This document shows positions 1 through 2,355 of a DNA stretch of 64,000 bases, in pieces (the stretch's first letter is position 1; every line of letters starts with the position of its first letter). Where the stretch lies: contig WJMA01000036.1 in NCBI GenBank assembly GCA_014728175.1, forward strand, positions 1-64,000, read 5' to 3'. The notes beneath the pieces are model-generated. The model searched no databases and was not told the origin of the DNA. It saw only the letters and a list, made by a program, of their open reading frames with translations. The DNA comes from Candidatus Fermentibacterota bacterium. GTDB taxonomy: Bacteria > Fermentibacterota > Fermentibacteria > Fermentibacterales > JCC-6. Position numbers and translations under genes: made by a program.

Positions 1-672
1 CAGATCACGGAGGCCCGGCCGCATGATGTCAACGTCCTCGACTCGCTTATCCTCGAGCCGGGAGCCTATTACGTGATGGACCGGGGATACATGGACTTCG
101 CCAGGCTGTACCGGATAGCCAGGAGTGGGGCTTTCTTCGCCACCCGGCTCAAGCGCAACGTAAAGCTGCGCCGAAGATACTCGCATTCCAGGGATGCATC
201 CCTCGGCATCCTGTCGGACCAGACCGTCGTAGCGGCCGAGGAGAAGAGCTACAACCATTACCCGGCACCCCTGCGCAGGGTAAGGTACCGAGACGAGGAA
301 GAGGGCAGATCGTTCGCCTTCCTGACAAACAACTTCGATCTGGCCGCCCGGACTGTAGCCGACCTTTTCAAGTCCCGCTGGCAGATAGAGTTGTTCTTCA
401 AGTGGATCAAGCAGCATCTGCAGATCAAGTCGTTTATCGGTCATACCATGAACGCGGTAAAGACGCAGATCTGGATAGCCGTATCCACCTATGTCCTGGT
501 GGCAATCATCCGGAAGGAGCTTGGACTGGACCATATCAGCCTCTACAATATTCTACAGGTTTTGAGCGTTTCTCTGTTTTGTTATGTTGATCTACCCCAA
601 TTACTTAGAGAAACCGACTTCGAGCCTGGTGATTATAATAATCCTAACCAGTTGCAGCTCTTCAACTTATGA
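1..672 (+). CDS. IS4-type DDE transposase, 3' part (5' end outside window)
   Basis: The reading frame is open from the first base, so this is the C-terminal ~223 residues of a transposase. A YVMDRGYMDF stretch carries a likely catalytic Asp. Further on, FKSRWQIELFFKWIK matches the IS4-family YREK signature (F/Y-x2-R-x3-E-x6-K) with the catalytic Glu. The C-terminus ends in the short hydrophobic Leu/Phe tail usual for this group. The frame is undamaged within the window, so the element may be intact. Whether it is active cannot be judged without the 5' part and the left inverted repeat. Confidence 0.9.
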   Translation, partial: QITEARPHDVNVLDSLILEPGAYYVMDRGYMDFARLYRIARSGAFFATRLKRNVKLRRRYSHSRDASLGILSDQTVVAAEEKSYNHYPAPLRRVRYRDEEEGRSFAFLTNNFDLAARTVADLFKSRWQIELFFKWIKQHLQIKSFIGHTMNAVKTQIWIAVSTYVLVAIIRKELGLDHISLYNILQVLSVSLFCYVDLPQLLRETDFEPGDYNNPNQLQLFNL

Positions 673-690
673 TGGGACACTAGTGGAGGG
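670..690. repeat. candidate right terminal inverted repeat of the IS element
   Basis: Just after the transposase stop lies TGATGGGACACTAGTGGA. A short end of this kind directly behind the stop codon is usual for IS4-type elements. The matching left end is outside the window, so this rests on position only. Confidence 0.3.
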
Positions 691-788: not shown

Positions 789-862
789 GGGGAGGAAACG
801 ATGATCATCACCATCCGGTAAATGCCACCCGGCAGTCGCAGTCGCAACCGGAAGGATGATCG
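789..862 (+). promoter_or_regulatory. leader ORF and possible attenuator ahead of the ABC-F gene
   Basis: A strong ribosome binding site (GGGGAGG, 789-795) precedes a six-codon ORF, Met-Ile-Ile-Thr-Ile-Arg-stop (801-821). Its codons at 804-809 (ATCATC) are complementary to 855-860 (GATGAT), and CCGG at 815-818 can pair with CCGG at 848-851. The paired partner covers the downstream SD (GAAGG, 851-855) and the ABC-F start. A smaller hairpin, TGCC/GGCA at 823-834, could compete. This resembles ribosome-stalling control of antibiotic-resistance genes; that reading is inference. A weak -10 (TAGATT) lies near 760-770. Confidence 0.5.
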
Positions 863-2355
863 TGTCGTCGTTTCTTAGGTTCGAATCCGTAACGTTTAGG
901 TATACTGGAAGCCCCAGGGCCGCGGTTAGAGATGTTTCTTTCACCACAGAACCAGGCTGGATCGTGCTGGCCGGGGCCAACGGCTCCGGGAAGACAACCC
1001 TGCTGAAACTGGCCACGGGATTTCTTCGGCCGGACACCGGAGTGGTGGAAGCCTCCGGAGACGCCCTTTACTGCCCTCAGCGCACCGACCGGCCACCGAA
1101 AGGATTCAGACAGCTGGTCCGACAGGGTCTGTTCGCGGAGCTGCTGGCCAAGCTGGAGATCGATTGGGACTGGCCGGACAGGTGGCAGACACTTTCCCAC
1201 GGGGAGCGTAAGAGATCCCAGCTTGCCGTGGCGCTGGCCCGGAACCCGGACATCCTTGCGGTGGACGAGCCGGTCAACCATTTGGACTCCCGGGGAAGGG
1301 AGATGATTCACGGGGCGCTGCAATCCTACTCCGGAATCGGGTTGCTGGTAAGCCACGACAGGATCCTGATGGACTCCCTGGCCTCCAGATGCGGGATAAT
1401 GCACTCCGACGGCCTGGTCGTGCGCAGGGGCGGCTACACCGTTGCCAAACGGGAGGACGACCGGGAACTAAAAGCCAAGAGAGCCGCCAGGAGCCGGGCC
1501 GCAGCGAAGCTGGATCAGCTGAGACGCGACGCCCGTCACAAGGAGCTTACCGCCAGAACCCTTCAGGCCAGAAGCAGCGGACGAAGGCTTACCTACAAAG
1601 AGATATGCACCTACAACGTCGACGGCCCGTCGAGGGTGGACTCGTCGGTTCAGAAGGCCGGTAAGCTCTCCAGAACCGCCCGGGCCAGGGTAGCCCGGGC
1701 CAGGGAGGAAATGGAATCGATTACCTACAGGAGGGTCCATCGAACCGGGATCGTGATGGAGGGTGAGCGCTGCCAGCGGAACTTGCTTCTCGAACTTCCC
1801 GGGGACAATATCCGGGTGGGAAGCACGCCGCTTGAGTATCCCCGACTCACCGTACTGCCCGGAGACAGGATAGCTTTGACCGGCCCCAACGGATCGGGCA
1901 AGAGCACCCTGATAGAGTTCATCGTCGGCGAGTTGCACCTGCCGGAGGGAAGGCTGCTGTACATCCCCCAGGAACTGACGGCCGATCAATCGTGTCGTGC
2001 GTTATCACAAGTCATAGAGCTGGACAACGAGATGCTGGGACAGGCAATGATCTGCGTGCGAAGGTTGGGGTCCGATCCCCGGGCTCTATTGGACAGCCAC
2101 AGTCCCAGCCCGGGCGAAACCCGTAAGCTTCTTCTGTGCCTGGGAATTCTGGACAGGCCCTGGCTGGTTATCATGGACGAGCCCACCAACCATCTGGACC
2201 TTCCGGGCATCGAGTGTCTGGAGGAGGCTCTGAAAGGTCTTTGCTGCGCTCTTCTCCTGGTCAGTCATGACCGGCGTTTCCTGGGCAACACGACCGATAT
2301 CCGGTGGAAGCTGGAAACGGAGCCTGCCGGCACGAAGTTAGTGGTAAGAGCCTGA
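856..2355 (+). CDS. ABC-F family ATPase (possible ribosome-protection protein)
   Basis: Soluble protein of about 499 residues with two ABC ATPase domains and no membrane segments, the ABC-F layout. Domain 1 has Walker A GANGSGKTT, signature LSHGE and Walker B ILAVDEPVNHLD. Domain 2 has GPNGSGKST, a degenerate signature SPSPGE and VIMDEPTNHLD. A basic helical linker of about 110 residues joins them. ABC-F proteins act on the ribosome, either as translation factors or as antibiotic-resistance proteins. The leader ORF upstream favours an inducible resistance role, but this is not proven. The ATG at 856 touches the GAAGG SD; the in-frame GTG at 862, six bases after the SD, may be the real start. 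Confidence 0.88.
   Translation: MIVSSFLRFESVTFRYTGSPRAAVRDVSFTTEPGWIVLAGANGSGKTTLLKLATGFLRPDTGVVEASGDALYCPQRTDRPPKGFRQLVRQGLFAELLAKLEIDWDWPDRWQTLSHGERKRSQLAVALARNPDILAVDEPVNHLDSRGREMIHGALQSYSGIGLLVSHDRILMDSLASRCGIMHSDGLVVRRGGYTVAKREDDRELKAKRAARSRAAAKLDQLRRDARHKELTARTLQARSSGRRLTYKEICTYNVDGPSRVDSSVQKAGKLSRTARARVARAREEMESITYRRVHRTGIVMEGERCQRNLLLELPGDNIRVGSTPLEYPRLTVLPGDRIALTGPNGSGKSTLIEFIVGELHLPEGRLLYIPQELTADQSCRALSQVIELDNEMLGQAMICVRRLGSDPRALLDSHSPSPGETRKLLLCLGILDRPWLVIMDEPTNHLDLPGIECLEEALKGLCCALLLVSHDRRFLGNTTDIRWKLETEPAGTKLVVRA

Follow-up and report, generated by a model that had tools for sequence, protein, structure and literature searches.

The question raised by this locus is whether a six-codon ORF lying shortly ahead of an ABC-F gene controls translation of that gene by masking its ribosome binding site. 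The locus belongs to a genome of 2.6 Mb and lies in the window, i.e. the whole 64-kb stretch of DNA that was analysed (G000:C23:1-64000). We characterized the ORF and the gene within the window, compared them with the corresponding loci of the same phylum and of more distant relatives, and modelled how a ribosome positioned on the ORF would change the accessibility of the ABC-F start.

Leader ORF, hairpin and ABC-F gene in the window

Direct reading of the plus strand provided the leader ORF MIITIR* at 801-821 (ATGATCATCACCATCCGGTAA; ATG ATC ATC ACC ATC CGG TAA) and, 4 nt 5' of its ATG, the Shine-Dalgarno (SD) sequence GGGGAGGA at 789-796. The stop codon of the leader is separated by 34 nt from ATG 856, such that the SD-led six-codon ORF was found as the original prediction had described it. 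The same prediction took ATG 856 as the start of the ABC-F gene. The reading frame does open there, but GTG 862 is probably the more likely start, because the SD of the ABC-F gene, GGAAGG (850-855, plus strand), abuts ATG 856 with zero spacing, while its spacing of 6 nt to GTG 862 matches the 5-6 nt found in 23 relatives. In the free RNA this SD had a mean unpaired probability of only 0.15 and is thus predicted to be masked by the leader.

The RNA folds placed the SD in a hairpin that spans positions 801-863 of the plus strand. Within this hairpin UCCGGU (814-819) pairs with ACCGGA (847-852), which includes the 5' half of the SD. In the short fold AUGAUCAUC (801-809) furthermore pairs with 855-863, which includes the end of the SD and both candidate start codons. 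For the RNA from 774 to 880 a folding energy of -36.8 kcal/mol was obtained compared to -27.7 ± 3.3 kcal/mol for dinucleotide shuffles (z = -2.8), and none of 200 shuffles was as low. The Ile codons of the leader had been proposed to be complementary to the region around the ABC-F start. In the folds the leader indeed paired with the ABC-F ribosome binding site, but a specific involvement of the Ile codons was not seen: The pairing that is common to all relatives joins leader codons 3 to stop with the SD, and start codon with start codon. The energy model additionally predicted a local hairpin of -11.0 kcal/mol over the ABC-F SD and start (846-881, plus strand), which may persist when the leader is occupied. 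We also asked how many of 50 long ORFs of the 64-kb window are preceded by an SD-led mini-ORF of which the 3' part can form a duplex of -12 kcal/mol or lower with the SD arm that follows; MIITIR was the only case (1/50).

The ABC-F coding sequence, read from GTG 862 (862-2355, plus strand), encodes an ATPase that matches Pfam ABC_tran. Sequence and AlphaFold model (pLDDT 88.7) both agree with the architecture of ARE ABC-F proteins, i.e. tandem ABC domains, a helical linker between them (helices 192-238 and 261-286) and no Arm. The best NCBIfam model was NF000355 (ribosomal protection-like ABC-F) with 252.6 bits, which is under its cut-off of 380, and the scores for all named ARE family models of NCBIfam were far below cut-off. 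Foldseek returned ARE-ABCFs as the nearest structures, with VmlR2, PoxtA, VgaA and VgaL leading by E-value and Lsa(A) reaching a TM-score of 0.74/0.75. Since the housekeeping ABC-Fs EttA, Uup and YbiT were good structural matches as well, a role of the protein in resistance is likely rather than proven. The subfamily to which it belongs is distinguished by a CPQRTDxPP motif in ABC1. Its members are scattered over Fermentibacterota, Hydrogenedentota, Coprothermobacterota, Treponema, Coriobacteriia and bifidobacteria, which suggests horizontal spread.

Conservation of the leader and of its pairing

Orthologs of the ABC-F gene, defined by E below 1e-60, were found in 24 of the 42 genomes of the phylum. 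For the set of 24 upstream regions the minus-strand loci were reoriented and two further upstream regions were included. Upstream of every ortholog (24/24) we found an SD-led leader of 5 or 6 codons at a distance of 34-40 nt before the start, and in nearly all loci an equivalent of the leader SD was present (GGxGGTGA/GGGAGG). The original prediction had regarded absence of the leader from close relatives as the outcome that would speak against it; the relatives have all kept it. The leaders fall into two classes: class A with MIITIR in the window, MFISIR in G013 and MILSIR in G005, and class B with MNTSF, MIITF, MIISF, MTISF, MNISF, MGISF, MGITF, MTNSF, MNILS and MIILS at 21 loci. In a protein tree, which included 17 of the 21 class B proteins, both classes formed sister clades with 100% support each.

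No other stretch of the locus is as well conserved as the leader. Between two class B genera the leader region was 83% identical, compared to 50% for the 74 nt upstream and 45% for third codon positions. Start codon, SD and in-frame stop were retained at all 24 loci, and the reading frame was kept despite T residues that are shifted between genera (MxISF vs MxILS). The peptide itself varied: After the Met none of the residues was invariant (I/N/T/G/F at position 2, I/T/N/L at 3, S/T/L at 4 and I/F/S at 5), and a conserved run of codons for one amino acid, as in attenuators of the trp/his/ilv type, was not seen among the 24 leaders. Codon 2 (804-806 in the window) ends in C throughout (24/24; ATC, AAC, ACC, GGC or TTC), a bias that falls outside the stem common to the relatives.

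All 24 minimum-energy folds were alike, with codons 3 to stop of the leader facing the ABC-F SD, and the leader start facing the ABC-F start or lying close to it. The arms of the stem are UCCGGU/ACCGGA in class A (UCCGG with CCGGA in G005) and CUUUCUGAAA/UUUCAGAAAG in class B. The originally predicted pairing between leader and ABC-F ribosome binding site is conserved across two clades with differing bases. Read in the register of the stem, several pairs were changed on both sides between the classes, and at locus L113 a stop codon changed from UGA to UAG was accompanied by a matching change in its pairing partner. The pairing changes between A and B could partly reflect that a fixed SD constrains its partner. 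The duplex energy of a locus' own arms was -12.5 kcal/mol on average, compared to -4.5 kcal/mol for a class A left arm with a class B right arm and -8.1 kcal/mol for the reverse combination. At each of the 24 loci no more than 0.4% of 500 shuffled leader arms paired as well as the native one.

For the 21 class B sequences the hairpin was recovered in the RNAalifold consensus. When applied to all 24 sequences in the MAFFT register, RNAalifold returned no common structure and no pairs, because the stem of the six-codon class A leaders sits one column off that of class B. The classes were therefore analysed separately and compared through the cross-arm duplex energies given above. Within class B, counts of covarying pairs were uninformative (48 of 500 shuffles reached the observed value), because the arms hardly vary; support by covariation thus comes from the comparison of A with B and from L113.

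A covariance model built from class B was applied to the genomes of the phylum. In 21 of them it gave a single site on the sense strand, which in each case lay directly at the ABC-F gene; no convincing match was obtained at other positions, and none in the genomes that lack the gene. At these sites the opposite strand gave weaker matches, as is to be expected of a hairpin. The model failed to recognise the leaders of class A or those of Coriobacteriia described below, whose likeness to class B lies in position, ORF and pairing rather than in sequence. A search of Rfam gave no real match to the element. We consider it almost certain that both the element and its pairing are genuine and have been conserved.

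Predicted unmasking and level of control

The effect of a ribosome on the leader was modelled by opening free energies, which were used in place of an earlier model based on per-position unpaired probabilities. In this energy model the average cost to open the region from SD to start was 17.2 kcal/mol for the free RNA and decreased to 3.4 kcal/mol once codon 1 of the leader was covered by a ribosome footprint. For shuffled leader codons an opening cost of 6.4 ± 2.8 kcal/mol was obtained. Folding with the leader occupied, which had been proposed as a check, would hence free the SD on average, but for the window's own RNA the cost only decreased from 15.0 to about 11 kcal/mol. This small modelled release is due to the hairpin at 846-881, which stays when the leader is occupied. 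Either this particular copy calls for caution, or the thermodynamic model reaches its limits here. Across the loci the modelled release was strong for L084 and for class B except L113, moderate for L083 and L113 and weak for the window.

Scanning the coding strand of four loci (window, L100, L084 and L097) revealed no terminator-like site, and thus also no intrinsic terminator between uORF and gene of the kind known from vmlR, msrD and vgaA. The predicted control is therefore translational and acts at the SD. A standard promoter scan of the window gave no hit on either strand. A weak promoter candidate is present at 739-765 of the plus strand (TTCGCA, 15 nt, TAGATT; 8/12 matches), with the -10 element beginning 41 nt before the leader ATG. 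Most class B leaders have promoter-like elements ~41-59 nt upstream, with stronger ones than this candidate among them, and at L084 one was found about 70 nt upstream. Because of these upstream elements the leader should be part of the transcript in most relatives. For the window itself, with its weak candidate, a transcription start downstream of 801 may apply.

The 3' part of an IS4-family insertion sequence occupies positions 1-685 (plus strand) of the window, with the C-terminus of the transposase at 1-672. Its right end near 685, GGGACACTAGTG, lies about 115 nt ahead of the leader ATG, and a copy of the element with 94% identity is found at G000:C3:474-1158. The insertion sequence is outside the switch and may have taken the place of the promoter region that originally lay upstream.

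Outside the phylum SD-led leaders of three codons (MGD, MRF, MRV, MRA, MRG) were found in the Coriobacteriia relatives L011, L014, L016, L017 and L018. They resemble the leaders of Fermentibacterota in that an SD-led mini-ORF has surroundings that pair with the ABC-F SD and start, and in their modelled release: Upon occupancy the opening cost of the ABC-F SD decreased from 16.7-22.4 to 3.5-10.4 kcal/mol. They differ, however, in sequence, length and spacing (55-85 nt) and are not universal in the class. The Coriobacteriia loci L155 and L156 have TTG-start ORFs (LRL-like), the flanks of which pair with the ABC-F SD and start. No clear SD-masking leader was seen at the examined loci of Hydrogenedentota, Coprothermobacterota, Syntrophaceae and Phycisphaerae and at most of those of Treponema and Coriobacteriia, such that the device is not common to the whole ABC-F subfamily. 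Other ABC-F genes of Coriobacteriia (L134-L150) lacked such a uORF. Several of these carry an upstream motif GGGTGCAGCATCG followed later by GCCCTGCTGCCCCGC; the two might pair, perhaps as part of another regulatory RNA.

A putative translational attenuator and its alternatives

The best reading of the locus, to which we assign a probability of about 0.75, is a ribosome-mediated translational attenuator of an ABC-F gene of the ribosome-protection type, with induction by drugs being likely. In absence of stress, ribosomes would complete the 5-6 leader codons and depart. Leader codons 3 to stop would then base-pair with the ABC-F SD while the two start regions pair with each other, such that ABC-F would barely be translated. 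A drug acting on the peptidyl transferase centre (PTC) would hold a ribosome on the first leader codons. The footprint of the stalled ribosome, reaching to about +15/16, would cover the 5' arm, prevent the hairpin and leave the ABC-F SD free. The ABC-F protein produced would then protect ribosomes. Leader translation, drug stalling, induction and the resistance function are what we infer here, the drug trigger by analogy with vmlR, msrD, cplR and cat/erm. Since no residue after the Met is invariant while length and stem are kept, the drift of the peptide would be explained more readily by stalling on the first codons than by an arrest that is specific for the peptide.

A single-hairpin attenuator design is known from cat-86. 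Attenuators that mask the SD are classic for cat, cmlA and ermC (PMC8876359, review). As in the present case, they consist of a short SD-led leader and a hairpin over the downstream SD and start; unmasking of these by a ribosome stalled on the leader is predicted here as well. The same features, i.e. a short upstream leader with its own SD and a leader hairpin that sequesters the downstream SD, were found at all 24 loci. The regulated genes encode an acetyltransferase, an exporter or an rRNA methylase in the classic systems but an ABC-F factor here, and the leader has 9 codons in cmlA compared to 5-6 here.

ARE-ABCF genes are commonly preceded by uORFs of 3-9 codons and varied sequence, which act mostly by transcription attenuation and on which lincosamides, streptogramins A and pleuromutilins arrest ribosomes close to the start codon (PMC9226507, PMC10201436, PMC12421871). 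For LSAP drugs stalling occurs at the start codons of the uORFs (PMC12421871). Very short and varied uORFs similar to those described here precede vmlR (MIN; PMC9226507), cplR (MR[I/M]; PMC10201436), lsaA (MAGN), msrD (MYLIFM; PMC10314930), vgaA, lmo0919/vgaL and lmrC (PMC9226507, PMC10201436, PMC10314930, PMC12421871). Like the class A leaders, the msrD leader, msrDL, has six codons and is hydrophobic; macrolides stall ribosomes at its stop codon (PMC10314930). While the uORF-controlled ARE-ABCFs mainly use an intrinsic terminator/antiterminator, control at the SD is predicted here, with no terminator-like site in four loci. The cited cases are furthermore Gram-positive, whereas the present one comes from an uncultured phylum of the FCB group.

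An alternative that we consider unlikely is constitutive translational coupling, in which routine translation of the leader melts the hairpin and promotes initiation or re-initiation at ABC-F without any sensing of drugs. The strong leader SD and an ABC-F start only 34-40 nt beyond the leader stop would be in agreement with coupling. However, an ORF of 5-6 codons is occupied only briefly, such that the hairpin can refold, and those ABC-F leaders of 3-6 codons that are known respond to drugs (PMC9226507, PMC10314930, PMC10201436). In addition, pairing between the two starts hides that of the leader as well, which would be expected for a switch that is held off. Less probable still is an attenuator that senses amino-acid shortage or generally slow translation, where pausing at particular leader codons frees the SD. 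Its mechanics would be identical and the leaders are rich in Ile, Thr and Ser codons, but with no invariant residue after the Met they have no sensed amino acid in common, and the controlled gene encodes an ABC-F factor rather than a biosynthetic protein.

The hairpin masks the SD by itself and could thus represent an RNA thermosensor or the binding site of a repressor protein with an incidental leader ORF. This we regard as quite improbable, given the start codon, SD and in-frame stop at 24 of 24 loci and a frame that is kept across the T shifts between MxISF and MxILS. Purine-rich SDs easily pair with pyrimidine-rich ORFs, but a short ORF that complements the SD by chance is hardly credible in view of the 24/24 conservation, an identity sharply above that of the flanks, the single case among 50 window genes and the arm-specific pairing.

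A translational attenuator of this kind would be a compact sensor, consisting of one hairpin and 5-6 codons with no terminator found in four loci. At slightly less than even odds it constitutes a phylum-wide, purely translational uORF switch, found in uncultured anaerobes, of an ABC-F subfamily that had not been characterised before. In this reading the leader ORF doubles as the anti-SD arm, each start codon is paired with the other one and the peptide drifts freely. If so, the switch would presumably respond to stalling in early elongation (at the start codon), whichever PTC drug causes it, and not to a stall that depends on the peptide. The finding also makes a role in resistance likely for an ABC-F subfamily that has received little study. 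In the papers cited, inducible ribosome protection via short leader ORFs is documented for Firmicutes and Actinomycetota. The same logic across an uncultured phylum of the FCB group suggests that anaerobes of sediments and digesters encounter antibiotics against the PTC so frequently that a dedicated sensor is retained.
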